Shown here in pieces: positions 1 to 19,852 of a stretch of DNA of 28,496 nucleotides (its first letter is position 1; the number at the start of each line of letters is the position of its first letter). The stretch comes from Saccoglossus kowalevskii (Eukaryota > Hemichordata > Enteropneusta > Harrimaniidae). The stretch lies in NCBI RefSeq assembly GCF_000003605.2, contig NW_003132365.1, positions 55,597 through 84,092 of the forward strand, in the 5' to 3' direction. The notes under the pieces were generated by a model, which ran no database searches, was not told where the DNA came from, and saw only the letters and a program-made list of their open reading frames with translations. Made by a program: the position numbers and the translations under genes.

Positions 1-2054
1 GTTAGTGATTAGTAGTGGCACATTGTGTCATCTAGTTTGGACTATTTTCGAGCGTGAAGCTACTCCTGTCCAATAAATGTTACGGGCTATGCGCATGCTA
101 CTGTGTAAAGCTGGTCGAGGTGACAGTAAAATCAGCTAAAGTTGAAAAAACAACACACACTCAATCCAGAGCAATCAGATTTATATATATTGCACATGTA
201 AGGGTAGTCTTGTTACACTGTTCAGGAGAATCTTAAAAATAGTCTGAAGTTCTGCATTCTGTGAGTTTTTGGCTGTTATTTTTATTTGTGATGGTTATCA
301 GGCAGTGAAAATGCCCTAATATTCACTCCCAAGTATTTGAGCATATGCTGCAGAGATTATAAGATTTTTATACTGTCCTATATTTATTATTATTGTCTGG
401 GATTTCATTGGCGTGGCATCTGTTGAAATAAAAGCATGATAATGTAAACCTCTATTCACGAGTGAATTCAATTCAACAAAAAGACCCCAAATTTAAGTAC
501 CGGGTATATTTGTTTAATTCTGATAGTGACAGCTTGTCCTTATATAAAATAATAAAATATTCTAATTAATAACATGCTTCAAAATTTGTAGGTATATTCT
601 AGACAGTTACGACTCAGTGTTAAAATAGGTCAGGTACGAGCTTGTCAGGGTGACTGAGGTAGAATCAATTAATTCAATGACATATATTGGAACTGATAAA
701 TGTAAATTCTCCAGCAAAATATTGCAATGGTGTTAATTATCCAACATATATTTATTTATTGACAATATGACACTGACTTTGGAAAGTACAGCAGTAAAGT
801 CACAAACAATAAAACAAAAATAAAATAGTAAAAAAAAAAGATAAAAAGCGGACACAACTGGAGACTTTCATCTTTAATTTCCCATGTACAACATAGGTCA
901 CATGTTTACAACTGGTGTTCCTGGTTTTGTGTGCCAGCCAGATTCAATTGTTAAATTGTAATTTTCTAATCGAAATTTGCTTAGCTGTTCAATGCCTGTT
1001 ATGTATTTTTCAGATTCTAATTTATTTTTAAAGTTTCTGTATTTTTCCCTGTGAAGTGCTTGTTGTCATTATAGATATCTGACATGAAAAATTCTTCAAA
1101 TTGATTTTGTTAATTTATTTACTTTTGCATTTATTTAAGATAGCTAGTATCGACCTCAAGAATGGCAGACTTGTGCATTCATGCCCCCAGACATCACTAC
1201 TATAAGTTAGGATTAAATTTAACAAAAAGGGAAAGTAATGTAGTTATTTTTATATATATATATTTTCTTTCAGGCCATTTGCTCTTTCTTTTTAGATTTG
1301 CTAGTGCATTTTTGAATCATTATTGTGTGATAGTGGTGCTGAATTTAAGCTAGCGATGTTTGGTTTTCGTTTAAAAACATTACTTTTCTTTCAGATTTTG
1401 ACATTTCGTGTTAAATTTCGATACCCCTCCAATGAAATACTTCAAAATCCATGAAACAACATCGATAGTGTGTTTCTTTCGTGGTAGTTGTGTCATAGCA
1501 ACCAGTAAAACCAGTAAACACAAGCAGTTTTTTGTCCCATTGATATACCGGTAATATTATACAAATCAGCAATCCCTGGACTGTGACAAAACCTTCAACT
1601 ATTTGTATGAATTTAGTACGGTAATAATTAGTGTGTTTATAAACAACAACAATTTATTGACACAACACTATATATGGTTCATACAGCAGTATGGTCACTA
1701 AAGAGAACTATAACTATCAACTACTTTCAAAATATGATATACATATTTGGAAAAATGTATAATACACTTATGAACTTACATTCTTTATTAAGTTTTTTTT
1801 TTATATAAATAATTATATTATTACCAGATATCATTTATTTGAAGAATTAGTTTATGCATGTGCGTGCCGTCGGGAACATGATTTATATTTCACCAAAAAA
1901 TATAATAGTGGATTTCCCATGTCTAATGAGCTCTCATGTAAATCAGTTTAGAAGGTTTGATGTGACAATTTTGAGGTCAGTGTAAGGCCACTGATGATGT
2001 GAAGTTATTTATCGTTTATGGCTTAGTGAAGTGAAGGGGATGTCATATTAGTGG

Positions 2055-2302
2055 CATACTGTCTGTCATCTTTTGTCGTTGTTGTTGTCGTCGTGAACTT
2101 TTCTTTTCGACGTGATAACTCCAATAATGTTTAGCCAATAACTATCAAACTTATATACATGTATATCCTTAATCTGTATGTATATATGTAGCAAACTGTC
2201 TGTTATCTTTTGTCGTTGTCACAAGCTTTTCTTTTGGACGCGATAACTCCAATAATTATTTAGCCAATCACTATGAAACATATATTAATTGGTAATCTGT
2301 AT
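2055..2302. repeat. Tandem duplication, two diverged copies of about 110-125 bp
   Basis: Copy 1 (about 2055-2180) and copy 2 (about 2191-2302) run in the same order: ACTGTCTGT, ATCTTTTGTCGTTGT, CTTTTCTTTT, GATAACTCCAATAAT, TTTAGCCAAT, ACTAT and AATCTGTAT. Copy 1 has extra GTTGTTGTCGTC units in the triplet-rich part. The copies differ by many point changes, so the duplication is not recent. No function is evident. Confidence 0.85.
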
Positions 2303-2487
2303 TTTTAGTGTTTATACATTACCCATTACTGTAGACAGATCGTATCTAATTTGAATATCTATGTCATAGTACACCAGTGAGATTGGCTTGCCCAGTAAAG
2401 TCGTACATGTAATATTGGCAAAGTGCTTGTATCCATTGTTGTCAACTTTACTGATAAAAATACATTTTTAGATACACAATCATGAAT

Positions 2488-2642
2488 ATTAAAGCGGGGG
2501 AGTCGTAACCTGCACGTGCGTCAGATGACCATAACGTGTCATTGTTTACAAACAAGCGTCTACCCATGAGCCTTTGCGCTTTTAACGTGTGTTGTTATCA
2601 TCTCTTGGGACTCAATTCCTGCATGTGCGCAGGTGACGATTC
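2488..2642. repeat. Dispersed repeat R1, copy with inverted arms
   Basis: The left arm starts AAAGCGGGGGAGTCGT, then ACCTGCACGTGCGTCAG. The reverse complement of 2614-2642 begins GAATCGTCACCTGC and continues with ACATGC, so the two arms are inverted copies about 100 bp apart. Related copies occur at 8282-8331 (same strand) and 26782-26822 (opposite strand). Three loci in 28 kb point to an abundant non-autonomous element. The exact ends and target duplication are unclear. Confidence 0.75.
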
Positions 2643-3588
2643 TTACGATGTATTATAGATTGATTTAAAATGTGTAAGCAGCATCAATAATACAATACAT
2701 GACAACGTAATATTAGATTGATGGAAAGTCCATCATGTCGAGTTAGTTTATTTCATTTTTAGACTGATAACTGTCGCTTGCAATATCGCAGCTTGCTGAA
2801 GAAAATGGTGGTATAGTAACAGCAAAAAGTAATAGAAGATTTAAACAACAAAGTTAAAAGTTTGTGTGCAACTTTATTGGGTATTCTTGTATCATGGTAA
2901 TAATTAGCCATTATAGACAGTGGAATATGTGCCCATATTCCAGGCTAGGTAGACTAAGTCTGTGACTTTTTTCGATCATCATGGCTTAGTTCACTGATAC
3001 AAGGAAGCAATAAGTGCAGTTGTTCTCAGTTTGTATATCTAATGAGCCAGAAACCAGGTCCATTTCGTCTTGATGGTGTGACATTACTAATATCTGTGTT
3101 GCATATTGTCAGTGTTTTTTGGTTATAACAACTTGTCATTTCTCTCTCACTGTCAACTAATTGATGCTTAAGTATTAGCCCAGTACGAGACTGACTGATT
3201 GTCTTTCAAATCTAGGTTTGTTAGAAACAACATGGACAGCTTGGTACTGCGTTTAATTTTTAAACAACACGGAACTGTTATTTGCATATGCTGAATTTTA
3301 CTGGCCAGTGACTGGAAAGCATTTTACTTTCTTTTGATCATTGACACTAGCATATAGTATGTGATGATTGTATGAATTTGCATCACCAATTAAACTGACA
3401 ATTCTAGACTGTAGATATATGTTCTGTAATGAACAAGTAATGATGCTTTTCTCATTTACATATAAACAGGAATTATCGCATTTGCTCAAAATAATAACAG
3501 AGTGTCCGAGACTGGATTCTTAAAATTAGAACTGCTTTAATAATATGTCAATAATCCAATTCTTAATTTCATTTTTTTTGTTACTCAG

Positions 3589-3774
3589 GTGCTGTTGTGA
3601 ATGCTAGAAAAATACTGGAGACTCCTCTCCATGTGGCAGCAAAGTACAGTCATATAGAGATTATCAAAGTATTGGTAGATTTTGGCGCTGACTTGTACAT
3701 ACGAGACAATCAGGACAATAGACCTGTGCACTATGCAAAATATCAAGCAAAAGAACTCCTACAATTCCATGAAA
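3589..3774 (+). CDS. ASB13: ASB13-like penultimate exon: last ankyrin repeat
   Basis: This exon of 186 bp lies between TTACTCAG (acceptor) and GTAAGT (donor). It starts with two bases of a split glycine codon (GT) and ends with the single base A of a split serine codon. It encodes one ankyrin repeat with the TPLHVAA helix signature, a GAD turn and a following helix ending ELLQFHE. An in-frame TAG lies just past the donor, so splicing is needed to reach the SOCS box. Confidence 0.9.
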
Positions 3775-4832
3775 GTAAGTAGTGCAGTTTATCCATTTAT
3801 TTTTTTTTTCTTTTCAATGCGTCTTGGTACTGTTATGTATAAATAGGTTAATTATCTTTTGATCCGTGGCATTGCATGTTCAAAAATAAATCTATTATAA
3901 TGCTATTATTGATACTGCATTTGTTATTATGAAACATAGCCAAGGCCATAACAAGTCATTTTTAAATAACGTATAAAATAATTGCATTTTATGTGCGCTT
4001 CATTAATGAAAAAACTGTAAAACTGTAATATAGTGGTATTTTTTTTTTTACAAAATTTTGAATGAAAACTGCCGTAAAAAATTCTGGCCACTTTTAAATA
4101 ATTGTTTTTGAAAAACGGCCGGATACCATAAACGATGAAGATAAATTTTCGACCAGTTAAATTTTTAGTGTGTAAAAATTCAACAAATATAAAAATTGGG
4201 TTATATAATAACAGTAGCAGAAATAGAATAGTTATAGAAAGTCGTGTCTTTAAACAAATATTTTGAGTAAAAATAAGTGATCAATTTCGGGTGAGGTCAA
4301 AATTTTGGAGGTCAATACATTACAAAAATTCACCAAATAATTAGGTGGTTGAATTTTTCGAGTAGGTGACATTTTAGAGTTTTTTGGTAGTTTTCATTGG
4401 AAGAATGACAAATACCATATAAAATACAAAAAAAAATTGGTTTGAATGAATTTCTATTCATTGACTGCTTTTCGGTATCTCTATCTCCATGCCTCCCGTG
4501 CATGTAAAGTAAAAAGTAACTCAATTCTCTGAAATTCTTCTTGTGTGCATAATCGGTACAAGTGACCTATAGGGGGCGCTGTTTGCAACAATTGTCTGTC
4601 TATGTTCTTCAATGTATTATTGCGATACATAAACTGTATTTATTGCTTTTTTGTATTCAGGATTGTAAGTGAATAATAAAGCTAATTTTCTGTCTCTTTT
4701 ACAGGCAATGCTTGGCCATTGTTACATCTTTGTCGGTGTACCATAAGATCCAATGTTGGCATATCAAGACTCAAATTTATAAAAAACTTAAAATTGCCGG
4801 AATTGTTACTAGGCTACCTCCTTTTTGAATAA
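3589..4832 (+). CDS. ASB13: ASB13-like ankyrin repeat and SOCS box protein, C-terminal two exons (5' partial)
   Basis: ASB proteins are substrate receptors of Elongin B/C-Cullin 5 ubiquitin ligases. Ankyrin repeats bind the target and the SOCS box recruits the ligase. The two exons (3589-3774 and 4705-4832) join in phase through a split AGC serine codon and encode about 103 residues. The first carries an ankyrin repeat (ETPLHVAAKYSHIEII, then VLVDFGADLYIRDN). The second is a SOCS box with a BC-box (PLLHLCRCTI, pattern xLxxxCxxxI) and a Cul5-box region (LKLPELLLGYLLFE). The spacing and the words VNA, ET-LH-AAK, FG and Y-RDN match vertebrate ASB13 as I recall it, better than other ASBs. The second proline of LPxP is absent, as in several ASBs. 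The N-terminal ankyrin repeats must lie left of the window. Confidence 0.88.
4705..4832 (+). CDS. ASB13: ASB13-like terminal exon: SOCS box and stop
   Basis: The acceptor TCTCTTTTACAG precedes 4705. After two bases completing the serine codon, 41 codons encode NAWPLLHLCRCTIRSNVG and the helix through GYLLFE, then TAA at 4830-4832. Leu and Cys of the Elongin C-binding BC-box are present, as is the IR that follows it in SOCS boxes. The protein ends directly after the box, as is usual for ASBs. The stop overlaps the start of a 17-bp tandem repeat, which begins at 4832. Confidence 0.92.
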
Positions 4833-4907
4833 TGAGACGATTAGAGCAATGAGATGATTAGAGCGATGAGACGATTAGAGCAATGAGATGATTAGAGCAA
4901 TGAGACT
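4832..4907 (+). repeat. 17-bp minisatellite in the presumed ASB13-like 3' UTR
   Basis: Four full units of ATGAGAYGATTAGAGCR start at 4832, 4849, 4866 and 4883, and a partial fifth begins at 4900. Units alternate between ACG and ATG in the middle, so the array is also two 34-bp units. It begins on the last base of the stop codon, so length changes would not alter the protein. Confidence 0.93.
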
Positions 4908-6079
4908 ATAATGTTTACATGGTATATCGAACAATATATTGTCAGTAAACTACCTCCTGTATGAATAACGAGAATAGAATGGTGTTGTGGTATATTTCAC
5001 AAAATATGAGTAAAATATTTGTGAAATAATTACTGCTACAAAATCTTGCAAATTCCTCGTCAAATTCATGAAAATGTGTTTGCCATAAAATTAGATTAAT
5101 TTACAGTAGTTTAGTATTGTATGTGATTATATCATGGTTATGCTGACATTCAGATAATAAGTAGGTAGCCTAAAACTTTTCAGAAATCTACAACATACAC
5201 ATAGTGTGAATACGGCATATTAGTAATGGAACTGTTCTCAAACAACATATCCCTGTCAAATCTGAACAATAGGAAGTAAAATACTCTTCATTCATTGGTC
5301 AGTTTAAAAAGTTAAAAACTGATTTATATGGTCAAAGGTAAAGGTCAAACTACCTCAGTGTGTTGTGAATTATAATCTTGTTTAGTGCAATTGGTATGAG
5401 AAGGTCAAATGTGATTAAGTCAAACACAATATATATAGGGGTAATGTGAATATGTTTTTAGCTAGATTTCATTTTTCTTGATTTATTCAATCATTTTAAG
5501 TTTAATTGGTACATATAATTTTGTGATAAACTATCCAGTCTAACTTTATGTCTTGTATGTCTTCCCCGTTCTGCAGTACAGAGTTTATTTTCACTCAGTA
5601 TTGCAGTAAATCAGTGAAAATTAAGTCTATGAAAGTAACATTTTTGGCGTTAATTTGCATAACGTATGATAAATCAATGAAAGAAAAATCATATAAACAA
5701 ATTGGGTTTGTTTTGAAAATTCATTCCTGATTAATTGAAATTTATTTGTCAGTATTTACCAGACTTACACCTCACCAACTTAGTATCAAACATGTTTTTA
5801 CTGTATTGTGTTTCCATTTTGTAATGTAAATCACTACACAAAGGACACACGTAGTATTGTGGCCTTATCAACTATTTACAGAAAGTTGTGCAATTGTGTG
5901 ATTATAGCGCCCTCAAGTGTTCAACAATTGATGCAAAGGAAGATATATTCACTTTGTTTTAATGTTGCAGAAATATTGAGTAGGTTTAAATTCATTGGTT
6001 TGTGAAGGAGATGATACATTTCATTATTAACATGTGCTTATTCAATCGGTTTTAATTACATATCAGTGAAATAAGTGAA

Positions 6080-6085
6080 AATAAA
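6080..6085 (+). terminator. Candidate poly(A) signal AATAAA for the ASB13-like gene
   Basis: Reading rightward from the stop at 4830, this is the first canonical AATAAA I find on the + strand. It would give a 3' UTR of about 1.25 kb. The downstream GT-rich element is not strong, and a variant signal could act earlier. Confidence 0.3.
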
Positions 6086-7189
6086 AGTAAACCCAGCTAA
6101 TGATTTAAAAACCTAATATTGTAGATCAAAGCAGATTCATATACAGCTCTCTTTTCAACAGTCTGTATCATATTATTCACAAACAGCATGAATTTTAGCA
6201 CATTATTTTCAGTATTGTTTTTTTCACTCCAACACCGAACCTTTTATTTGTTGATATACCATTTTTAGCCATCAGAGGTTTTTAGATCCATGCCATTCAT
6301 TCTTCTTGTAGATGAGCACTCCACATTTTAGATCGATAACAATGTAATTTTCAACAAACATGGGTACTTTTGATTGAAAATATTCTTGTCATTTGCAAAA
6401 TATCAATAATTAATCAACAAAATATCGACTACAAGTCTGTGGCTAATACTGACTGTTTTTTTTTTACTTTCTGCAACCTGATGTACTGTAAGTGATGAAG
6501 AGCGCCCTCATTTTTGAATATCAGTGATTTTTTTTGATCAGATCAGACTTTGTATTTGATATAGTTGGTGTGATGACAGGGAATGTAGTGTGACTAAACT
6601 ACAGCTTTTAATTGCAACAAATTGTGATATAGTTTATTACAGCTGTGAAACCCATTGGGTTGGATGCACCTCGGAGCGAGTGTTGTCATCAATGTGAAAC
6701 TTTGTGCCTTTCTTAATTAATAATGATTGTTCATGACATTTTTAACTGTAATGTATTTTTAAGTAACTTATTTTCATTAACTATATTGTATAACTCGTAC
6801 AAAAGATATTATAACACAGTAATTGTGGATATATTTTGTCAATAATCAATTTAATTTGTGTTTGATTTGTAACATTTTAGAGTGGAATGGAAAAATAGAT
6901 GTTGGTCATTCCCATAGAATAGATCCATGGTAATCAGTGTTGCTAAGGCCAGTAATTCTATGTTCTGAACATATACGCTCCAATATTCATATTTTTTTGG
7001 TTTTACTTGCTGTTGTTCTATATTTTTGGTATATATGATGCATCTTGGTCGCCTTAAAAATATATATAGAAATAAAAAAAAAATGGAGCTTATATCTACA
7101 TCAGATTTTAATCAGATGGGACGTTGATAGATATAGGTTAGCACACAGTTCATAATTATGGCTACTGCTGTTTTAGAGTGCAAAATGCA

Positions 7190-7405
7190 CCTTAACTTTT
7201 TCACCCCTCTTTTCATCACAAAATGGTCTCGTTTATAGTCTGCACTTTCCTTCAGAAAATTGGGAAAAAATTAGTCAATTTTTTTGAATGAAAACTGAAA
7301 ATTTACTCAAATATTGTCCATTGGCTCCAAAAAGTAAGGTTCATTTGCAGAAATATTAAAGAGTATAAGAAAAAAGTGCAGAAACATTTGGGCGAGAAAC
7401 TGGTG
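7190..7405 (+). repeat. Dispersed repeat R2, copy 1
   Basis: Segments CTCTTTTCATCACAAA, TTTATAGTCTGCACTTTC, GAAATATT and ATAAGAAAAAAG, then TTTGGGCGAGAAA, recur in order in the reverse complement of 10450-10621. The two copies lie in opposite orientation about 3 kb apart. The middle has an extra A/T-rich insertion relative to copy 2. It is non-coding and of unknown class. Confidence 0.75.
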
Positions 7406-8281
7406 TTGAAAACTTGTGAAGATGCTTTGCAAGTGGCAACAGTGTTGCATGAGTCACATTGTCAGCTAAGGTGATGTCAATCTGTTGCTACCGGTACCTA
7501 CTTGGATATGCAAATTTAGAAACGGGAAATTACTCATACAAAGTGCTGACATCAGTATGTCTATCAGACGACACCTGTTGACATCTCTTATCTTGTCCTC
7601 TATTTCAATACCGGTTCCTGGTAATGGCGAAGATGTGCAAACAAGTTGTCATAAAACGGAAGGTCATATTTAGGTTAGCGGTAGTTCGGAGAATAGTTTC
7701 AGTATGAGTTGTTCAAAGTCAATGTCAACGGTTTGAAGTAAATATAAGTCTTTTTCCCACTCAGAGTTCAAAGGTGAATCTACCGTAAGTGGAATTGTGA
7801 TTATTGTTTTGATACCGTTGTACCGGTAGGCATAGTTCACTAGTAGCAATAGTTCACTAATTACATCATTAAGCATTACGTAATGTGATTAACCATTTGA
7901 GCGACATTGTCAACTCTTAGCACCGCCTAATAATTTGTCGTCTGCTCTTTCCCATATGAAATGTTGATATAAATTGACAAATATTTTGATTAAAAACTAA
8001 AAGCAATATCTGAAACTGTTCTTATGGTCCAAAATGAAGATGAAATTTAGTGACAATTTTACAGAATGTGAAAATATCTGCATTTAATTTTTGGGACGGA
8101 AAAGTATTTGCCACTCAAAGGGTTAATTATTAAATAAAAAATCTGGACAAACAAATAAGTAATTCAAACTGGCAACAGATGTATTTATATTGATTGTGGC
8201 AAGGGATTTTGTTCAGTCATTAAAATAACTTGTGATTCCTGACAAATCACTGAAAACCACATCAAGTTATGCAGTTTGACT

Positions 8282-8331
8282 TTAAAGCGGGGGGAGTCGT
8301 CACCAGCGCCTGTGTCATTGTTTATAAACAT
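8282..8331 (+). repeat. Dispersed repeat R1, partial copy
   Basis: TTAAAGCGGGGGGAGTCGTC followed by ACCAGCGCCTG and GTGTCATTGTTTA-AAACA matches the left half of the 2488 copy, including the downstream CATTGTTTA-AAACA part. The right, inverted arm is not evident here. Confidence 0.75.
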
Positions 8332-9802
8332 GTGTGGATTTCTTGAGACAGCGACTTTCTGGAAACTATAGCAGCTCAATTAACGACTTGCATTATCTGT
8401 ATAAACACGTACGAAACACAATGTGTTGTTTGGACTGATTCATGGGCACAGAAATCGGGAATACTCAGACTGAGCTACCTCAGAGATTATCAGTCTTGTC
8501 TTAGATGTGTGGATGTTATTTGTAGATATTTACATGTAATTTGTAAAATATACAAAGCAACAGCAAATGGATAATATTTTATCAGAGTGTTTATTTTTTT
8601 CAGAGTAAACAAACTGTACATAACAAAACTGAAGAATATGGAATTAAACTTATCTTACAATGATTTCGTTGAACTTCAGATTTAGGAGTTCCAGTGCAAT
8701 AGATAGAAATTACCTTTACCCTTAGTTTATTGATAAACAGGCAGTGTCAGAGCATAGTTTATATTTACAATAAAAAAAAAAATAATATATACAAGTTCAT
8801 GCACGGTCTGAGAGAGATTTGTCAAAATGTAAATAGATGAGTTCACCGACGCCAGTACGATAATTCACTGGTGTAAACGGCTACTCTGGGTGGGAGTTTA
8901 ACCCAGACCGTGGACTTTGGAGCCATCAGATTGTTTATGTTAATTTAATGATGGTTGCCATTTTATTTTTTAAGGATGTCAATTTCAAATAATCTGTGTT
9001 TACATGGAAGGAAGTATTTATGACATGTCTTGTAAACATTTCTACTGCTTCCTTACTTTGTTAAACGCATGTTATAGTGATTTAATACTGGATGGTCCCC
9101 TGCAATATTAATGCTATCACCCCCTTAAGTGTAGTGCATTATCCCAAAAAGTCAATTTGTTTAATAGTATAGTTTGACATACACTTTGTTTTCACTACTT
9201 GATATGTTTTGAAAGGGGGGAGAAAAAAAAGAAAAACTGGCTGTATACTTTATGATATAATAAATAGAATAGAAATCATACAAGTAACCTCAGTAAAGAG
9301 TTCTCCTATTGGCCAGCAAAGCTGAATACATGAGGTTTTTGCCAATCAGAGAATTTGTTTTTGGATGGCAAACTGAATCAAACTGTAACCAGAAATTCAA
9401 TAATACATTTTGGTCCTGAATGTGAACGATAGGAAACAAGAACAGTGTCGAATTTAGGAAGGAGTCGTGCGCAAATAATGTTAAAAAATAAAAAAATAAA
9501 AGGTTCCAATTTAAAAAGATTTTTCCATAATTTGTAATCATATATAATATTTACAAAATTTTTAAAAAAGTTACAGTTTTGATACTCTTGTATATTTCAG
9601 CTTGTCCCTAATATGGCACATGATTTTTTTTCCAGAAAAAAATATATGCAACACTCTGATATGGGAATAAATAATTCTGACAAAAAAAAAATATCCTGGC
9701 AGCTCAGATTGTCAGTATGTTTGAAATTACAGAGCTGAATCTTAACGCTGACACTGACTTTGACCAGGATAAAAAAAACATTGGTTTTGAAACCATGTAA
9801 AT

Positions 9803-9808
9803 TTTAAT
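9803..9808 (-). terminator. Candidate poly(A) signal ATTAAA for the NET1-like gene
   Basis: On the minus strand the common variant ATTAAA sits about 435 bases past the stop codon. It is followed by a T-rich tract and a GT-containing stretch. No AATAAA occurs between the stop and this point. The next canonical minus-strand AATAAA is near 8962-8967. The choice is uncertain. Confidence 0.3.
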
Positions 9809-10242
9809 TAGAGCCCCCTCAGCTATTGGGCAAACAATTCGATCTCTGGGTCATTGTATTATTCAATGCTTATAGAAAAAGTAGAATACTTAAAATTACA
9901 AGATGATTTTACCACTTTCAGCATTTTTGAGACCCACCCCTGAAATCAAATGGCTCTTCCCTTATGTCCTATGTAACACATATTGTCTAATGTTAGAATC
10001 CCTGTTCCTTTGCAAAGGCTGACTTCATGGAGTACTTGCTCTGGCGGTATCTTCTGACTCTGGTTGGTCAACTCAGGCACAGTCCAGCAGTTGACAGCCG
10101 GTTATCAACCATTGATTTAACCAGGGTACAATAATTTTTTTCTCCTCTATACAGTGGGTCATACAGTTTGACCAGAGGGGCATATTCGTCCTTGGCTTCT
10201 GTTGTATTGTCACATTTAAGTTTTTTTTTTGCTGCGAGTGTG

Positions 10243-10391
10243 TCACACCACACTCTCCATTTTTGGCACAGCTGGCATTACAGTCCTCAGTAATTGCATC
10301 CATTGTTTTTTATCATGTTCATCATTAGCCTGCAGCGTATGACCCTGTCCTAATGTGGGATCAGTGGGAGTGATTCGGAACATGTGTTTAG
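10243..10391 (-). CDS. NET1: NET1-like last coding exon: end of PH domain and PDZ-ligand tail
   Basis: The acceptor CGCTTACAG precedes CT, which completes a split serine codon. The frame reads KHMFRITPTDPTLGQG, then HTLQANDEHDKKQWMQLL, matching the last PH strands and C-terminal helix of NET1. It then runs through a short tail to MESVV and a TGA at 10243-10245. Longer frames on the same strand (to 10073 and 10068) are out of phase with the PH helix and are not the gene product. Confidence 0.93.
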
Positions 10392-13300
10392 CTGTAAGCG
10401 AGAAAGAAAAGATCAGTGTTATTTCCTAATATAAAACAATCTAACACATTAACCTTTACACCACCAGACTTTCTCACCCAAATTTTTCTGTCTTTTTTCC
10501 TTATAATCTTCAATATTTCTGGAAATTTTTAGCTATTTTTGTCCTAATCTTCTAAAAGAAAGTGCAGACTATAAATGGGACTATTTTGTGAATTTGTGAT
10601 GAAAAGAGTGAAAAGGGCAAGCCCATCAGCACAAGCAATCATTTAAAACTGTAGCTGCCAGGGTTCTGCCCACGCCGAGCATACTGGTTTGTGTATGTTG
10701 GACATAAACACCGCCTTGCGGTTTTGAGACACCCAGTCTACAGAGAGGTTCAGTACAAAACACACTGTCTAGCCTAGTGGCCAAAGGGTCTATTGGATAA
10801 CATCAACAAACCATAAAAGGGATAGTACACTATCTTTGAACGTACAAATCACATGAACTCAAAGCTTCTGTACAGCTGATGAGTATAAGTATTTATTTAT
10901 TGCTATTGTAAACAACCTTTCCTTAGACTTTGTCAATGATTAACAGATTAAAATCAAATAGGTGTCAGGGCCAAGTACAATAAAAAGAAAAGAAAAAGAG
11001 GTGACTGCAACATAACTTTTAAATATTTACCCTGAGAGTAATAACACCTACTGTAGAATACTGTGGAATACTTTATTTTTAGCTGGAATTAATTTTCACT
11101 GAAAAGGCTTTTTGGGCGTTTTGTATGGAATTTATTTTCACTGATTTTTGATGAATTTAATGTGAAATATAGGAAAAAAAAGTATATTCGCTGGATTTTA
11201 TTTTCACGGAATCATCCCTTCAGCGAAAATAAATTCCAAGTGAAAATAAAGTATTCTAAAGTAGTTGGAAATATACCATACTTGGATGGTTTGGATTAGA
11301 GCCAGTATCATTAGACAAGTTTTAACAACATGACAGTTCTTATTACATCAACTCAATTTACTGTTTGATTGGAATTTAGTGATCTCTATTTAATTAAAAC
11401 TCAATCTCCTGCACTGCATGATCGGAAACACCATACTTTTTTCTTCTTCTCTTCTCTTCTCTGATCTAATTCTAATGTTATGTGGGATCGGATTGATTTC
11501 TTTTGATACGGTACTCTCACGGTTTATATTTGAAACTGCTGCAATTAAAAATTTGCAGTGTCCATGTACTTGTGAGAACCAGTTCCTTCTCCCACGTGTA
11601 GCAAATATGTTCAAATTAAACGAATAGTTTTAATTTCATATTTAAACTATGTATACAGAGGACACTTAAACCTGACTGGGCTGTATAAGCTACAGTGCTA
11701 AGGGAGAGACCATTTTCCAAGGATGGGTGGGAGGGGGGGGGGGTGCATTTCTTTCAAACTATTAATATTGCTTTGCAATGCTTTTTAATTTTCTATATCT
11801 CTTTTGTTATTAAATTTCTAAATTCGATCACAAACTTTATTTTTAAATGGCATGCACTTGTGAATGAAACTGGAAACAATTATAAGAGAAAAGACCAGAC
11901 AGTGTGTTCTGTGGCTGTAAATTCAATTATGCCATATTGCATATAAAAACCATACCCACAACTACCCCCTCCCCAAATGAAATAAGTTGACCCTAATTGA
12001 AATACTGTAAAATACTTTATTTTAGCTGGAATTAATTTTCGCTGAAAAAGCTTTTTGGGTGTTTTGTATGGAATTTATTTTCACTGAATTTTGACATGTT
12101 GAATGTAAAATATAGGAAAAAAGGTATATTCGCTGGATTTTATTTTCACTGAATCATTCTTTCAGCAAAAACAGCGTAAATTAATTCCAAGCGAAAATAA
12201 AGTATTTTACAGTAGAATAATAATTTGCACTTACATAATTGTTGCGTGAATGCTCCTCGAAACGACCCATTTAGTTTGGCATCACTATCATTCATATCAC
12301 CTAACATCAACTGCCTAACTGGAATCGGTTGGCGATAAACCTGATAATGCTTCTTGTCGTTTTTCGTCGTTTGCCTTGTCAGCACAAAGATATCTTCAAA
12401 TAAGAACACGTGTAATTTCTGCAAAAGAATTGTAAAAAAACAAACACCTTGATTAGTTTTGAGTCAATAAATTCTTTCACAAATAGACATTCCAACGAGT
12501 CTGCAGCCACTTTTTTTGTTTAGAATGTTCTCTTTGAAAGATTTTTTCTTTCTTTCTTGTATGAAAAGATCAGGTAAACTGAGAAGTCTCCATGATACTG
12601 TGGATAGAATGCAGGTAACACAAACATTGTGAGCAGCTGTGGAGTGTTATTTGAAAGATGCATTTTACCGGTAGATATAACCAGTAGGTTAACAATATGA
12701 TCACAATTAATTTTCTACCAAAATGTAGTTGCAACATTTTTCCATAATTTTTTTTTAAATATTTATACCAAATTTTCAGTTATAGCAATATATGAAATTT
12801 TTTAGTTTATTTTATTTTTTGCACTCAAAAAGCTAAATTTTACATAATTACAAGTATGGCTACTGTTTCTGTGATTATTACTAATTTTTTTTTTTTTTTT
12901 TTTTTTTGAAACAAATAATCAGTCGTGTAGACATTGTTAGTTAGAAGTGTTTTGGGAAAGTTATCAGCCTGTAGAACTTAACGGTTGTGTAAACAGGAAG
13001 ATATAGTGATTAGTGATTGGGAAAGGTTACATTAGCAATACTGCAAAACAAGTCAATTTAATTGACACTGAAGTGTTTTTGCCGAAAAGTATGTCAACGA
13101 GTTTACCACACGATCACCAATATACTCACCGTTCCTCTGTTGTTTCGTAAGATTCCCCCACACAATAACACTTTTTGTTTACATATGAGCGGGTCCATTT
13201 GCTTCTCATCGGTATATTCAAATGAGTCTATATAATGTCGACATTTCGCCTCCCCAGTTTTTCTATCGACTTGTCTAATAATAGCCTCGGATACTTTTAT

Positions 13301-16300
13301 CTAAAAATGAAAATAAAAAAAGGTTGTGTTATTGATCAGATCCAGGGTAGGACTGAATCTGAATGTCAAATAGTGCATATAATATTTATTTTTATCGATT
13401 TACGATAAAATGTAATCATAATTGAAATTTTACAGTGAAAAACACTTCAACAACAATGGACAAATCAAAAATAGGTCTAAAAATGTTAAAAATACACATT
13501 GATTTATAAAAGCTTACTAAATGCAGCTAAACGAATATGAAATTTTCCCAAAATAAAACTTACAGCTTCTATAATATATTCTCTTTCATGGTGTTCCAGT
13601 GACGTAAATTTCAGGAGATTCTTCAACAATAAGGGATACTTCACAAGTCGACTCCTAGGCACATCAAGAAAATTCCACAAATCAAGCTTCCTACTGAACG
13701 GTGACTCTCTACACCTCTGGAGAAAATCATCAACTTTTTTATCCGTTTTTTTTACATCAAGAAGCGATTTCGCAGCTACTAGATTGGAACAATAGGAGAC
13801 GTAACTACCTGATAACCTCGGAAACTGTAAAATAAAAAAATTTTGATGAAAAATGAGCTGGGAATGACAGCGAAAATAGTTGTTTATCAAATAGATATAC
13901 CCCTTACCCAGACACACTTCAACCACAGTCCATACATATATGTATACATACGTATGCACGCACACCCACGCATGCAGCCATCCTGTTCCGAAATTGATCT
14001 AAATTTCAAAAGGGCAGAGAGTAGTAAATAAACCTGACAAACTACATCCTCATGACAAAAGCTAACCTGACAAGTGTGGCAAGTGATTAGATTCCACAGA
14101 TGCTGACTAAGTGAACTATGTCTTACTGCTAGCTATATTGGATGTGTAAACATTCAACCTAAATCCATTCAACAACTGCACCCCACTAAGTCTAATAACA
14201 TCTTTAGTAATACAATATAAGGCCAGTGAAGTTTTTCTAATTATCCAGATACCTTAGCGAAAAAAAGGTACGTGTCAGAATTTACATTGAATGTAAATAT
14301 ATAAAAAAATACTATAAGGGAACATACATGTACATACATGGGGGGGGGGGGTTTATAATGCTAAGGAAATACTTACCCATTGCAATAAAATTGTTGCTAT
14401 GTTTTCTGTTGTGCCGTCTTTCCTTTTCTGCATTTTTAATGATTCAACAAGTTCTGTAAATAGTCAAAGAATTAAAGATTAAATTTGAATATGTCAGTGA
14501 AGGGACAAGAAGGCTAATCATAATTTACTGCTGTAACAACAAAAGTTGAACGAAGATTATCAAAAATAATCAAGTTGTAATAATGAATAATTTTTAAATA
14601 ACACACTGCATCGTGACTCACCTTCGTGAAGAGGTAGAATATTTGCCAGCGACCCGAAAATTGTATTCAATTCCTCGTCCTTTAAGATTCCTAACGATTT
14701 CATGGAATCATGGTAGGCTTTCTTGATTAATTTTAAATCTTCTACAAGATCCACTTCTCCTTGATACAATTCGTAAATAGCCTAAAAATAGATAAAAAAA
14801 AATGGAGTTGTTGATTCTGTGTCATTGAGTACCGTACATACCGATTCAAAATATTTGTATTCTAGGGTGGTGTGGAATATGAACCAAGGTGCTCGAGTCT
14901 GAATTCATAGCAAAACAGTTGTACACCCAAAAGTAAACATAAAGACACTACCAAGTGTGTTATTTTGCCAGGGAGGATGGCAAATGCTCTCTCCAAGTCA
15001 GAACAACATTCTAATTCTAACTTTCCTAAATGCAGCTTGTTGTTTTCAACTGAATTACGGTACAAGTCTAGCTGTCAATCACAGGAAAACTACGTTGGCC
15101 TAAATACAGGACGACACTCAGCATGATACCACATTTTCTTGCGGTTATTATTCACAATGTTATTTATGCTCTCATGCAGTGATTAACGCATCACTGGAAA
15201 CTAATATCTGTACTATTATTAACACTGGACCTCTTCAAAGGCTATAAAACACATTTTACATTCTCAGTATTTTTTTTTCTTTTCTTTTTGCACTTACAAA
15301 GACAATTCTTTGCAGAACATGAATTCAATTTCCTTATTTGACATTGACCTGTCAATGGCAGATAAGAATTTCTGATAAAATAGATTTTCTGACGAAACTA
15401 AGCGAAATCTTTTCTTGACCACCGCGATTCTGAAAACTGCTGATTTTTGGAATTTCACAGAACTATGGGTTATAAAAATGCAAAATCAATTTTATCATAA
15501 CTATTGCTGTAAACTAATTAAAATTTTAGTAAAATGTATGAACATGCAGCACAACACCTAAGTGTTTTTTTTTAAATAAAAATAAATTAGAGGGGACGCT
15601 GTTTTCTTCGTTCTATTTACTTCATAAACTATTACGGTATGATAAACAGGCGTGACGACAATGAGTGGGTAATACCTTTGCGTAATGACATCATTTCACC
15701 TTGGGACAATAAACGTTTGATATAGATGACTACTCGACAGTGCTGTATTGTTAACAAACCGACAGTGCACAGAGTGAACTTTACTACGCTTGTATAAAGT
15801 TTAAAATAATGTAGTAATGAATCTACCTCAATGATAATCAATGTACGCAGGATGTCTGAACCATACAGCCATTGTATTTTCAGTGTTTATAAACAAAACT
15901 GGCTTGAATATAAATTATGTTCACACCACGGAGATGCAACTGAACATGTGCACAAACATTTCTTTTCTGTTCGCATTTACAACAAATGTTAAACAACACT
16001 TATGAACTGTTTATGAAATATTAGCTTAACTATATTTCATATTTTTGCAAAAAAAATTGATACCAAAATATTTTTGAGAAATAATGCTATGGACCGACAT
16101 ACATGTATAAACAATTGTCCAATAAATCCATTATAGTTCTGGCACTGTATTTAAAATGTCACTGTATCGAACCAAACGTTTATTGATGTTTTGTATTGAT
16201 TTATACTAAAAGACTGCAAACCTTGTCAACATTTCACTTTGCAGGCTCGACTCATTTTATTGAAAACATTGTTCAGCGTGCGTGTGAGATTGACTGATAA

Positions 16301-19300
16301 CATCATCGATTCTTGATACTTTCCACAAATTTAAAATAGATTTTTTTATCTGCCACATTTCATCATAACATTTCAAACTTCAAAATATTTTTGCAATGTT
16401 TTATCATAAAAATATTCTAAACTTCAAAATTTTCTTTTTTTTTCCTGCCATGTTTTATCATAATATTCCCAAATTCTATCTTTTTTTTCATCCGCCATCT
16501 TTTATCATGACTTTAAACTCTAATGACTATCAGGAAATTTGAGTAAATTTGTACATTAAAAGAAAACTACATATATCATCACAGGACATCATGTCTACTT
16601 GTGTTAATGATGTGAAATGTACACATACATGTACACATGTATTTGACGCATGGAAGCAACAAGAGGTCTTTAACCTCAACACCATGTGAAATAGGAAACC
16701 ACAGAACCCAATCGAGCACCTGTCATACAAGGCGAGAAAAACATTTCCAAACAATAACAGGCCAAACAAAGGAAAGAATGCAGGGCATGCAATGAACTAA
16801 GTTTACACAATAGCAGGGGAAAAAAATGTTGTTCGTTGCCGTGTACTGACTTCTTCTCTCTGTTGATGTAACAACGTAGTCATAGTCTCACCATGAAAAA
16901 GTCTAGAGAAAATACACAATCTGGGGGTGAAAGTTGTTCAATTTAAGCGTTAAAACTTTTACAAGTCTTTTACAAAACTCAGGAAGTGGTAATAAAGCCT
17001 GATGAGGTCAGCAACCATCAGTTCCTTGTCGTCTATTCACATAATTGGGTTGCCTCCATATCTATTATTATTGATAATAATACCTTTCAATCAAGCTAGG
17101 TTGAAGAACCTGATCACTTTTTGATTGAGAGAACATCTTGTTTTTCTGTGATTAGCATATGTATGGGGGTAAAAGAGATGCCCTGGGGATTGCTCATAAC
17201 AATGTTTATTAGGTTTTGTTTTGTCTTGTTTAATATTGACAGTGTCAGTCGTTAGGCACCACAAGCCTTGCTACGGTCATTGCACCTGTGTACAAATGAC
17301 TTTGTTTTGAATGATAATTGAGAAACTAACAATCAGACAATTGCTCTTGTAGTTGACCGTTTAGAGTCCATTGATAACTGAATTCCTGCTGCCTTGAGAA
17401 ATCTAAGATAAAGCCTAATCGATAATGCTACCTGAACAAAGACATTCCTAGACGGAAATTGAGACAAAATACCTTTGTTCTGACACTGCAAGTGAATAAT
17501 TGAAATTCAAGACTCGAGAGAAACAAGTGATACACATTATATTATATCTCCATTAAATCCCCAAGATCATGAAAAAAAATTATAAAAATCTAAAACTCAC
17601 CTCTTGTCTCTTGATATCCATCTTGGAAAGAACGTCGTTGACATCGCCTTGTATCGTTTCACTCCATAGCTTGCTGTCACGTCGCTTAGTTGGAGTGGCT
17701 TGTGGTTTTGTGTACGGCTTAATCGTGAAAGTTGGTGATGAGCTGAGATTGCGGAAACTCATAGACCTCTGCGAAGGAACAGACACGGTAACACAGAACA
17801 TTACTTATCATTCATTCATTCGTTTTTGAATGCCTGAGTTCGCTACAAACTTGATGCATGGACTGAAAGCTGACGATGCTTGCAGACTGGACGGTCGGTG
17901 ATGACTGAGCACGCTTTAGTCGAGTGGCCAGAGCCAATACTTATACCCAGGAGAAATATGCGTAAACTAACAAAAGGGCGTTCGTGTCAACTGTTTTCAA
18001 AAAACTACTGAATACAAAGTTATGTCTAACTAACATTCCAGAGATCCTTAAAAAAAAAGCCGCTCAACAATAGGTGAAGAGGAAACATGTGAACATTCTT
18101 GACAGGTATTTGGTAAACACAATCGCCAAATCAAATTAGTTTGCACCAAACTAGAATCGCCTTTCCTGTTTTCCAATCAATAGCAGGTAAATTATACGTA
18201 GACTAGTGTCTTGATGAGCGTGAAAACCTTCGGGAAATGCTCAGAATGCGAATATTTGAAGACAACACGTGTCTACATAGTTGGGATTTACACATTGCAC
18301 TGATGACTAAACTGATGTCGTCACTGGTCAATATTTGAAAACATCCAATTGTTGGGCACTTCAGCTCGATGGCTGCTGAAGCTATTGATTTTCTTCTCTC
18401 CAAGGAAAACACATAGTACAGACAAACAAAAACACGCCTACTTAAATCCTGAGATTAAAACGATTTGCAAGTTTCAGACTCCTGGATTTTTCCACAGCTT
18501 CTACTACTGCATAACCTAGTAATTACAACAGCTTTTTTTTTTGGGGGGGGGGGTCGGATACACGACAACTCCAAATGTAATTTTAGTCACCAATGTACAC
18601 TTACTCTTTATATTTATATAAATTTGATACATGTGAGAAAAAGGTCTGTATGAAAATATCCAACAAGTGAATGCCGAAGCCAACTTTCGCCATCCTTTCA
18701 CAAACATATTTAAAAAAAAAATGTGATCAAGACAACTTACAGAAAATACAGAAAAATAAAAACAAATTCGCAAACAATGCCACAAAATATTAGCAAGAAA
18801 AATCATGGCCTTCAAAGGGTGGATATCTCAGCTTCCATGGTCAAGTAGGTGGTAATATACATGATATCGTTAACATTACGGCCAGCCCCACTCATTATTT
18901 AAAAATAATGGTTTAAAATAGCTCAGTATTTAAAAAAAAAAAATTCTAATTTTTGTAGATCATTATGTTAGTTAAATTGAGAAATTATTCAAATTAATTA
19001 AGGTTGTATGTTTCCTGCAAGAATTTTCACATCATCATAACCTATTCCAGTATACAGTGAATACATGTATCAATGGCGTTAGACAACCCGGAGCTACCTC
19101 AGTAGTCAAACCATAGCTATGTGTTTATTTGAAGTTTCTTATTAGCACACGTGTACAGGTAAACATCGGTATTCATCAACGGCAAATATTTCTATGCTTC
19201 ATATCTTTTAACTTCCTGACTGCACTAAGAGGTTTGTTTGTAAATGAGGAATGCAGCGTATTGGTTTGCTCCCGGCAAAGTATTCTCCTCCCTCCCACAT

Positions 19301-19852
19301 AATTTTTATCATGTTTGTGTACATACCGTCAATGCCTGTCCAACTTTTTTCACATGATTCACCGGAGAGATAATGTCTACTAGCGAAGCTACCCTAGACA
19401 TTTGGCGGACACGCTTCGAGCTAGGTTCCTATAATGAAGAAAGAGAAAATATTAGCAATATATTTTTTAGAAAAAAAAACTATTTTTTTTTTACTTTGAT
19501 ATAAAATAAACTGCATAAACGGGACAGTTTGAAGGAATTTGTCAGGACAGTTTGAAAGACAAGATAAGATAAAAAGCTGACATGATATGCGAGTTAAAAC
19601 AATACTCAAAGGCTAAGATAAGCAATGATTACGGAGAAAATAGACAGAAATAGAACAACAAAAAATATTCTCAATTGTTATAAAAATAAAATAAAAATGA
19701 AGAATTGTGTTATGTTTTGACGTCTAATGTGTGAACATAACCTTGTCTATGATTAAAAAAAAAAGGGTGCAAAATATTACCTGGAAACTAGAGAGAAAAT
19801 CATAAGATCCACGTCGCATGACAGGCATAGTGGCAGACCCGCGAAAAACCAT
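10243..19852 (-). CDS. NET1: NET1/ARHGEF3-type Rho guanine nucleotide exchange factor, short isoform (nine coding exons)
   Basis: This DH-PH exchange factor activates RhoA-type GTPases by GDP release. The coding exons, in transcript order, are 19852-19781, 19428-19327, 17768-17601, 14781-14622, 14453-14377, 13824-13564, 13300-13130, 12418-12235 and 10391-10243. All junctions are GT-AG with matching phases. The total is 1344 bp, or 447 residues plus stop. Residues 25-40 (EPSSKRVRQMSRVASL) and 83-93 (TPTKRRDSKLW) are NET1/ARHGEF3 hallmarks. The DH domain spans about 111-300, with the conserved RQEAIYEL helix and RLVKYPLLLKN. The PH domain spans about 315-435 (KLHVFLFEDIF, YQVYRQPIPV, HTLQANDEHDKKQWM). 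The C-terminus is MESVV. Vertebrates have two paralogues; this gene resembles both and is probably the unduplicated orthologue. The start ATG has a good context (AACATGG) and in-frame stops just upstream. The tail is much shorter than in vertebrates. Confidence 0.95.
10450..10621 (-). repeat. Dispersed repeat R2, copy 2, in the last NET1-like intron
   Basis: This is the inverted counterpart of 7190-7405. It shares TCATCACAAA, TTTATAGTCTGCACTTTC, GAAATATTGAAG and a GTGAGAAAG end on the minus strand. It begins about 60 bases upstream (in the transcript) of the acceptor of the final coding exon. Confidence 0.75.
11059..11263. mobile_element. MITE-like element, copy A
   Basis: About 205 bp, bounded by TACTGTGGAATACTTTATTT on the left and an inverted AAATAAAGTATTCTAAAGTA on the right. 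Inside are AGCTGGAATTAATTTTCACTG, CTTTTTGGGCGTTTTGTATG and TATTCGCTGGATTTTATTTT. It is the same element, in the same orientation, as copy B at 12003. It has no coding capacity, so it is non-autonomous. Terminal TA fits a TA target site but does not prove it. Confidence 0.85.
12003..12214. mobile_element. MITE-like element, copy B, next to a splice donor
   Basis: About 212 bp. The left end TACTGTAAAATACTTTATTT and right end AAATAAAGTATTTTACAGTA are perfect inverted repeats over 21 bp. With small gaps the match continues to about 42 bp (GGAATTAATTTTCGCTG against its inverse). The core matches copy A. It lies in the last NET1-like intron, ending 14 bases from the GTAAGT donor (12234-12229) of the PH exon. 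The transcript could fold it into a hairpin. Confidence 0.9.
12235..12418 (-). CDS. NET1: NET1-like exon 8: first half of PH domain
   Basis: 184 bp between acceptor TTCTTTTGCAG and donor GTAAGT. It starts in phase 0 with KLHVFLFEDIFVLTR and continues through HYQVYRQPIPVRQL to GSFRGAFTQQL plus one base. These are the most conserved PH words of NET1/ARHGEF3. The poly-basic loop residues KNDKK are visible. Confidence 0.96.
12419..13129 (-). other. NET1-like intron with a 23-base T run
   Basis: Between the linker exon and the PH exon. It contains an uninterrupted T run at 12885-12907 (A on the transcript strand) and otherwise A/T-rich unique sequence. No exon is seen. Confidence 0.8.
13130..13300 (-). 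CDS. NET1: NET1-like exon 7: DH-PH linker
   Basis: 171 bp, 57 codons, phase 0 at both ends, between TTTTTAG and GTGAGT. It encodes IKVSEAIIRQVDRKTGEAKC, YIDSFEYTDEKQMD and KVLLCGGILRNNRGT. This corresponds to the final DH helix (NTKTGESEC in vertebrates as I recall) and the first PH strand (VLCCHGEL). It is too short to appear as a long open frame and was found by homology and splice sites. Confidence 0.95.
13564..13824 (-). CDS. NET1: NET1-like exon 6: DH domain core
   Basis: 261 bp, 87 codons, phase 0 at both ends, between TTTATTTTACAG and GTAAGT. It contains YCSNLVAAKSLLD, VDDFLQRCRESPFSRKLDLW, NFLDVPRSRL and VKYPLLLKNLLKFT. The last word is the conserved DH helix that contacts the GTPase. 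It is the most strongly conserved exon in the window. Confidence 0.97.
14377..14453 (-). CDS. NET1: NET1-like exon 5: short DH segment
   Basis: 77 bp between TTTACAG and GTAAGT. Two bases complete a split Glu codon, then 25 codons read LVESLKMQKRKDGTTENIAT and ILLQW. This aligns with the vertebrate segment containing KPDGS/TxE and ending in W. Low complexity lies near it: a 12-base G run at 14340-14351 falls 20 bases past the donor in the intron. Confidence 0.93.
14622..14781 (-). CDS. NET1: NET1-like exon 4: DH domain start (CR1)
   Basis: 160 bp between TCTATTTTTAG and GTGAGT. It encodes AIYELYQGEVDLVEDLKLIK, KAYHDSMKSLG, NTIFGSLANILPLHE plus one base. The Glu of YEL in the first DH helix is the residue family members use to contact Rho switch 1. 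YHDPM of vertebrates is YHDSM here. Confidence 0.96.
14782..17600 (-). other. NET1-like intron, 2.8 kb, no gene seen
   Basis: This A/T-rich intron separates the TPTKRR exon from the first DH exon. Frames on both strands are short and unlike any protein I know. There are TACATGTA-type repeats near 16621-16640, and an octamer CTACCTCA at 15823. Confidence 0.75.
17601..17768 (-). CDS. NET1: NET1-like exon 3: pre-DH region with TPTKRRDSKLW
   Basis: 168 bp, 56 codons, phase 0 at both ends, between CCTTCGCAG and GTGAGT. It encodes RSMSFRNLSSSPTF, then KPQATPTKRRDSKLWSET and VLSKMDIKRQE. The KRRDSKLWSE word is nearly identical to ARHGEF3 (vertebrate NET1 has KRRSSALWSE as I recall). RRDS is a basophilic-kinase type site in the region where vertebrate NET1 is phosphorylated. 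Confidence 0.96.
17769..19326 (-). other. NET1-like intron, 1.6 kb, no gene seen
   Basis: No exon or RNA gene is recognisable. It includes a T10-G11 run at 18533-18553 (C11-A10 on the transcript strand) and an octamer CTACCTCA at 19094. Open frames at 18203-18412 and 18516-18815 look like chance. Confidence 0.75.
19327..19428 (-). CDS. NET1: NET1-like exon 2: common exon with EPSSKRVR
   Basis: 102 bp, 34 codons, phase 0 at both ends, between CTTCATTATAG and GTATGT. It encodes EPSSKRVRQMSRVASLVDII and SPVNHVKKVGQALT. Vertebrate NET1 and ARHGEF3 share EPSNKRV followed by L-RVTSLANLI-PV. It is the first exon shared by both predicted N-termini: the short exon at 19781-19852 and the long-isoform exon at 25720-25782 both end in phase 0 and can join it. 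Confidence 0.95.
19781..19852 (-). CDS. NET1: NET1-like alternative first coding exon (short isoform)
   Basis: The ATG at 19852-19850 has a strong context (AAC before, G after) and in-frame TAA and TGA within 24 bases upstream, so this is a true start rather than an internal exon. It encodes MVFRGSATMPVMRRGSYDFL and SSFQ, then a donor GTAATA in phase 0. RRGSYDF contains a PKA-type RRxS site and resembles RRGSSFTF in the long vertebrate NET1 N-terminus (recalled). It lacks the KRKRR cluster, so the product should have weaker nuclear targeting. Confidence 0.82.

Follow-up and report, generated by a model that had tools for sequence, protein, structure and literature searches.

Microsyntenic blocks, defined as at least three orthologues with no more than five intervening genes, are already known as a kind of conserved feature. 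In the portions of one survey drawn on here, 256 new blocks were inferred in the bilaterian ancestor, 84% of which were lost in vertebrates, a loss tied to genome duplication and the subsequent loss of paralogs (PMC8851819); the main text of that survey names none of NET1, ARHGEF3, ASB13, TASOR or IL17R. Here, we analysed a 28,496-nucleotide stretch of the genome of the hemichordate Saccoglossus kowalevskii (the window), in which an ASB13-like gene and a gene of the NET1/ARHGEF3 type, which encodes a guanine nucleotide exchange factor (GEF), lie tail to tail, 5.4 kb apart. The window corresponds to positions 55,597-84,092 of scaffold C2400 (191,850 bp, or 0.034% of the 572-Mb assembly; scaffold coordinate = window position + 55,596), and the same scaffold carries a TASOR gene and a gene for an interleukin-17 (IL-17) receptor. 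We propose that TASOR-ASB13-NET1/ARHGEF3-IL17R is very probably an inherited neighbourhood that predates the vertebrate genome duplications and was split in vertebrates by complementary loss.

Two vertebrate segments are available for comparison, in each case as excerpted from the cited source. The human chromosome 10 list reads TUBAL3, NET1, CALML5, CALML3, ASB13, FAM208B, GDI2 (PMC6368290), and the bacterial artificial chromosome (BAC) lists of Senegalese sole (Solea) contain net1, asb13a and gdi2 (PMC6579814, PMC7915175). For the other segment, a sheep list reads APPL1, HESX1, IL17RD, ARHGEF3, TASOR, CCDC66, ERC2 (PMC11591336). From these lists, a parent block was predicted to hold TASOR and perhaps a GDI gene. 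The first-pass annotation, which was made from the window alone, had given human NET1 and ASB13 as close neighbours on 10p15; both are in the chromosome 10 list, but CALML5 and CALML3 are listed between them. It had also placed ARHGEF3 and ASB14 near each other on 3p14. ASB14 presumably groups with ASB15 and ASB2, not with ASB13; because it would thus belong to another subfamily, its nearness to ARHGEF3 is no evidence of a duplicated NET1-ASB13 pair, and we rejected it as support for one. What stands of that claim is the location, as ASB14 is listed on chromosome 3 with APPL1, HESX1 and IL17RD in the excerpted source (PMC3732286), although this is weak as support for the pair.

On the hemichordate scaffold, the four genes follow the order TASOR (-) at 19.5-20.4 kb, the ASB13-like gene (+) ending at 60.4 kb, the NET1/ARHGEF3-type gene (-) at 65.8-75.4 kb and the IL-17 receptor gene (+), whose SEFIR domain lies at 170.6-171.1 kb. 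This order is a merge of the human chromosome 10 list read backwards (TASOR2, ASB13, NET1; we take FAM208B, TASOR2 and TASORB to be one gene) and the sheep list read backwards (TASOR, ARHGEF3, IL17RD). The TASOR-type, ASB13 and NET1 genes thus share their order with human 10p15, and their relative orientations also agree with the human strands as we assume them to be. Unlike the hemichordate scaffold, the human segment has the two CALML genes within it, is accompanied by GDI2 and, over the stretch listed, names no IL-17 receptor. TASOR, ARHGEF3 and an IL-17 receptor are likewise in the order of the 3p14-type segment, whereas the sheep list names no ASB13 between TASOR and ARHGEF3, and the hemichordate receptor lies approximately 95 kb off in what is presumably the opposite orientation. 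Compared with the bilaterian microsyntenic blocks, the present case is similar in that at least three orthologues have apparently been kept near one another since before the vertebrate duplications, but it differs in that intervening genes are hidden in runs of N and the readable intervals are incompletely annotated.

The TASOR assignment came from a search of the whole genome, in which a single DUF3715 match was detected, and this sole match is on the scaffold predicted to hold it (C2400:20261-20434, minus strand; one exon, 33.5 bits). Two consecutive exons at this locus (20401-20264 and 19675-19539), for which splice sites were found, matched human TASOR (6tl1) over 75 residues (64.9 bits, E = 5e-17), and once joined they matched the Pfam DUF3715 (pseudo-PARP) profile at 52.6 bits (cut-off 28.5) from position 82 to position 150 of the 150-position profile; the N-terminal half of the domain went undetected at the locus. 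On both comparisons, the gene is a TASOR. In the excerpted account of the family, TASOR-like proteins occur throughout metazoa, TEX15 is restricted to vertebrates, and the TASOR/TASORB duplication was probably an early vertebrate event (PMC10578480). Downstream of the minus-strand TASOR exons, at approximately 15500-17700 of the scaffold, we noted by eye an extended tandem array whose open frames occupy several phases (VPLQDTMGTT and WYPLCPAVVP patterns).

The GEF gene of the window has nine coding exons on the minus strand (Table 1). All eight introns are bounded by GT-AG, and the joined exons encode 447 amino acids without an internal stop. In this protein, Pfam detected RhoGEF (130.7 bits) followed by PH (SOS1_NGEF_PH, 52.9 bits), and the closest solved structures were human NET1 (4xh9, 415.9 bits) and ARHGEF3 (2z0q, 402.2 bits), whereas the next different GEF, ARHGEF12, scored 85.8 bits. 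The NET1 and ARHGEF3 scores are nearly the same and lie well clear of those for other GEFs, as expected of a single unduplicated parent. The genome gave 24 RhoGEF matches, and eight loci were fetched, including the window gene (one of the 16 matches left out is another exon of that gene); among the seven other fetched loci, the similarity to the window GEF reached 27% over 117 amino acids at best, and none was NET1-like. The near-equal NET1 and ARHGEF3 scores and the single DUF3715 match would fit a genome outside the vertebrate duplications. The C-terminal residues ESVV resemble a class I PDZ ligand, and NET1 presumably ends in a similar motif. The last intron of the gene contains two copies of a palindromic element of approximately 205 bp that resembles a miniature inverted-repeat transposable element (window 11059-11263 and approximately 12002-12215); the copies are 89-91% alike in ungapped pieces, and the arms of the first copy are 84% complementary.

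The ASB-like gene is visible as its last two coding exons alone, which lie on the plus strand and together encode 103 amino acids comprising the last ankyrin repeat and a C-terminal SOCS box. The first-pass annotation had given the ends of both genes correctly to the base, at 4832 and 10243. When the 103-residue tail was compared with provisional reference sequences for the tails of human ASB13, ASB11 and ASB9 (a comparison confined to these three ASBs), it scored 74.3, 57.0 and 56.2 bits, respectively, and the SOCS box alone scored 28.5, 25.8 and 27.3 bits. The genome gave 30 SOCS-box matches, and 20 of the 29 other loci were fetched. Among the fetched loci, the window ankyrin exon matched the provisional ASB13 reference best (53.9 bits, 47% over 49 amino acids; next 33.1), in a comparison for which five of the 20 loci were extended 8 kb upstream; it was also the best match to ASB11 (42.4; next 37.4) and ASB9 (38.5; next 33.5). 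A ranking by joined tails, in which the window gene scored 74.3 bits to the provisional ASB13 reference and the next of the 20 loci 38.5, was rejected as unfair, as the window contributes two exons and many other loci only a SOCS exon. With regard to the provisional references, the ASB9 tail was identical to 3zkj over 52 of 105 amino acids, and a published ASB13 antisense primer, as given in the excerpted source, translates to the NLRKAT of the ASB13 reference, an agreement of six amino acids (PMC2852384). A search of the Protein Data Bank with the whole tail was swamped by designed ankyrins and showed no ASB13 chain among the best 60 of 417 rows; with the SOCS part alone, it returned only a weak ASB7 match (E = 0.098) and no ASB13 chain. 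The gene probably represents the ASB13 branch in this genome, or else stands as parent to a broader group of ASB13, ASB9, ASB11 and ASB5. A 17-bp tandem repeat of 4.5 copies (window 4831-4906) extends from within the stop codon of the gene into its early 3' flank.

The tail-to-tail pair itself lies in gap-free sequence, and the first-pass annotation had seen no gene between its members. In agreement with this, none of the 12 open frames of at least 60 amino acids lying wholly within 4833-10242 gave a Pfam match (E <= 0.01), and neither did the three that overlap the last GEF exon; the search covers frames of this length, and small exons or RNA genes may remain. Nor did Pfam match any of the 14 open frames at window positions beyond the GEF start, and a transfer RNA scan of the window found none. 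The window alone does not show a pairing beyond chance; that evidence is supplied by the flanking TASOR and SEFIR genes on the scaffold, and it strengthens the claim, already made in the first-pass annotation, that the linkage is older than the vertebrate duplications.

The SEFIR domain was detected at four loci genome-wide, of which the one on the scaffold scored best (Pfam, 102.5 bits). The gene lies at 170513-171808 on the plus strand (L023) and has a long cytoplasmic tail. Against IL17RA, it scored 68.9 bits (others 47.0, 45.8 and 34.7), and against a provisional IL17RD reference it scored 77.4 bits (others 56.2, 51.2 and 43.1). An upstream exon (L023:6525-6722) encodes an EGF-like repeat (26.8 bits) and is located just upstream of an exon that, by eye, is likely to be transmembrane. 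From these comparisons, the receptor was called IL17RA/RD-type. Retroelement- or transposon-like coding stretches are found near this gene and towards the left end of the scaffold (163212-166502 (-), 174114-174575 (+), 183462-186220 (+) and 10088-10855 (-)), one by a weak endonuclease match below the cut-off and the others by eye, and the start of a cytochrome P450 gene is present at 181143-181592 (-) (Pfam p450, 51.4 bits).

Taking the four genes together, we infer that their order would predate the vertebrate genome duplications. Of the two copies then produced, one would have retained TASOR2-ASB13-NET1 (human 10p15) and the other TASOR-ARHGEF3-IL17RD (3p14), with each copy losing the complementary member. 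The persistence of the order would most plausibly reflect the gradual erosion of an ancestral arrangement, and regulatory sequence in or around the long-intron GEF gene may have helped. NET1 and ARHGEF3 are RhoA activators, ASB proteins bring substrates to Cullin-5 ubiquitin ligases as their receptor subunits, TASOR belongs to the HUSH machinery that silences transposons, and IL17R acts as a receptor for cytokines; the proteins of the block need not act together. This history fits the picture of duplication and paralog loss drawn in the microsynteny survey (PMC8851819).

Several observations weigh against an inherited block. The assembly is one of them: 100,989 of the 191,850 bases of the scaffold (53%) are N, in six runs, so its joins are taken on trust. 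On the vertebrate side, published gene lists were taken as map order, which such lists do not always follow, the strands were all assumed, and the naming that equates FAM208B with TASOR2 and TASORB is our assumption. As excerpted, no TASOR2 is named between asb13 and gdi2 in the BAC lists of Solea (PMC6579814, PMC7915175), another human list has ANKRD16 and IL15RA ahead of GDI2 (PMC6393686), a 3p14.3 list is alphabetical (PMC5387319), and the coho salmon region lists il17rd, appl1 and hesx1 well apart from arhgef3 (PMC8102513). Extension of the block to GDI2 was rejected, with all seven GDI matches of the genome on another scaffold (C1340). The IL-17 receptor contributes further points: its SEFIR domain was noticed during an open-frame listing of the scaffold and not predicted beforehand, its distance from the NET1-type gene is large, and in a seven-sequence tree it fell outside the RD+RA pair. 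Going by the human strands as we assume them, its relative orientation would be opposite to that of IL17RD, and we know of no vertebrate IL17RD with an EGF-like repeat architecture.

The assignment of the ASB gene to ASB13, based on the ankyrin exon and the provisional human references, is less firm than that of the NET1/ARHGEF3-type gene. It might instead be another ASB, for instance one from the ASB9/11/5 branch or a form restricted to invertebrates. With 103 amino acids visible, the percent identity of the tail is about equal for all three references (35.2 to ASB13, 35.8 to ASB11 and 36.9 to ASB9), so that the score alone separates them; when the SOCS box alone was ranked among 21 loci of this genome, the window gene came fourth for ASB13 (28.5 versus 30.4, 29.3 and 29.3 bits) and ninth to tenth for ASB11 and ASB9. 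The 5' part of the gene is in a gap: its exons are unreadable because their position would be in a 33,316-bp run of N that ends just before the window, and visual inspection of window 1-3588 showed no ankyrin exon, no profile search having been made there. Against another ASB stand the tail scores, which place the provisional ASB13 reference highest, the lead of the ankyrin exon over the 20 other fetched SOCS loci, five of them extended upstream, and the position beside NET1 and TASOR, which is that of ASB13; we regard such a misassignment as unlikely. The gaps could also mean that TASOR and the IL-17 receptor were wrongly joined to the window by scaffolding, as runs of N abut it at both ends, at scaffold 22,281-55,596 just before its first base and at 84,093-163,211 just after its last. 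Such a false join would, however, need to have brought in precisely those families that neighbour NET1/ASB13 and ARHGEF3 in vertebrate genomes, and it would leave the gap-free ASB-NET1 pair untouched; it is the least credible of the alternatives.

Scarcely more credible is the possibility that the genes were gathered separately here and in vertebrates, by convergence or chance. The analysis covered a single genome, with so many ASB genes some ASB could lie near some GEF by chance, and the predicted GDI is absent from the scaffold. Nevertheless, four families are common to this scaffold and the vertebrate neighbourhoods, in the same order, and the TASOR involved is the sole one detected. The chance that a given locus falls on this scaffold is 3.4e-4, and that at least one of the four SEFIR loci does so is 1.3e-3, both being rough figures that ignore gene density and are to be read with the knowledge that SEFIR was seen before it was predicted and that one of the two predicted families (GDI) failed. 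Functional maintenance, through shared regulation (for example, by enhancers in NET1/ARHGEF3 introns) or a common chromatin domain, would add to inheritance rather than exclude it. The order has apparently been retained across very distant animals, the GEF introns are long, and chromatin-domain constraint has been proposed as a cause of ancient microsynteny (PMC8851819, as excerpted). On the other hand, the IL-17 receptor is distant, and the vertebrate lists name neither ASB13 beside ARHGEF3 nor IL17RD beside NET1, which indicates that the block was breakable after duplication; maintenance of this kind seems doubtful. It is equally speculative, and rather improbable, that an ancestral bilaterian block of transposon silencer, ubiquitin-ligase receptor, RhoA activator and cytokine receptor was held together by a shared regulatory domain and was then divided between two vertebrate descendants by complementary loss. 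Inheritance of the order from before the duplications is the explanation that we prefer.

Table 1. Coordinates of the ASB13-like and NET1/ARHGEF3-like genes and of the interval between them (window positions).
Feature	Position	Strand	Basis
ASB13-like penultimate coding exon, last ankyrin repeat	3589..3774	+	Open, AG/GT boundaries; Pfam Ank 36.3 bits
ASB13-like last coding exon, SOCS box, stop 4832	4705..4832	+	Pfam SOCS_box 42.3 bits (cut-off 23.5); 43.8 bits in whole-genome search
Convergent intergenic stretch, no recognised gene	4833..10242	.	Pfam search of 12/12 listed open frames wholly inside
NET1/ARHGEF3-like coding exon 9, PH domain end, C-terminus ...MESVV	10243..10391	-	Stop at 10243
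NET1/ARHGEF3-like coding exon 8, PH domain	12235..12418	-	Spliced NET1/ARHGEF3-like model; structure match
NET1/ARHGEF3-like coding exon 7	13130..13300	-	Spliced NET1/ARHGEF3-like model
NET1/ARHGEF3-like coding exon 6, RhoGEF/DH core	13564..13824	-	Spliced NET1/ARHGEF3-like model; best RhoGEF match of the genome
NET1/ARHGEF3-like coding exon 5	14377..14453	-	Spliced NET1/ARHGEF3-like model
NET1/ARHGEF3-like coding exon 4, DH domain start	14622..14781	-	Spliced NET1/ARHGEF3-like model and genome RhoGEF search
NET1/ARHGEF3-like coding exon 3	17601..17768	-	Spliced NET1/ARHGEF3-like model
NET1/ARHGEF3-like coding exon 2	19327..19428	-	Spliced NET1/ARHGEF3-like model
NET1/ARHGEF3-like coding exon 1	19781..19852	-	ATG at 19852, putative start codon

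No description of a TASOR-ASB13-NET1-IL17R block was found in the literature searched, which was mainly open-access, with supplements outside its scope. If the proposed history is true, human 10p15 and 3p14.3 could be read as daughters of one ancestral neighbourhood, in which NET1/ARHGEF3 and TASOR2/TASOR would be duplicate pairs, and ASB13 and IL17RD would have been divided between the daughters. Because complementary loss would have divided the block, the whole of it would be unreadable from either vertebrate segment alone. The block would offer a concrete and testable case for why gene neighbours persist for so long, and it may exemplify how post-duplication loss hides ancient microsynteny in vertebrates.

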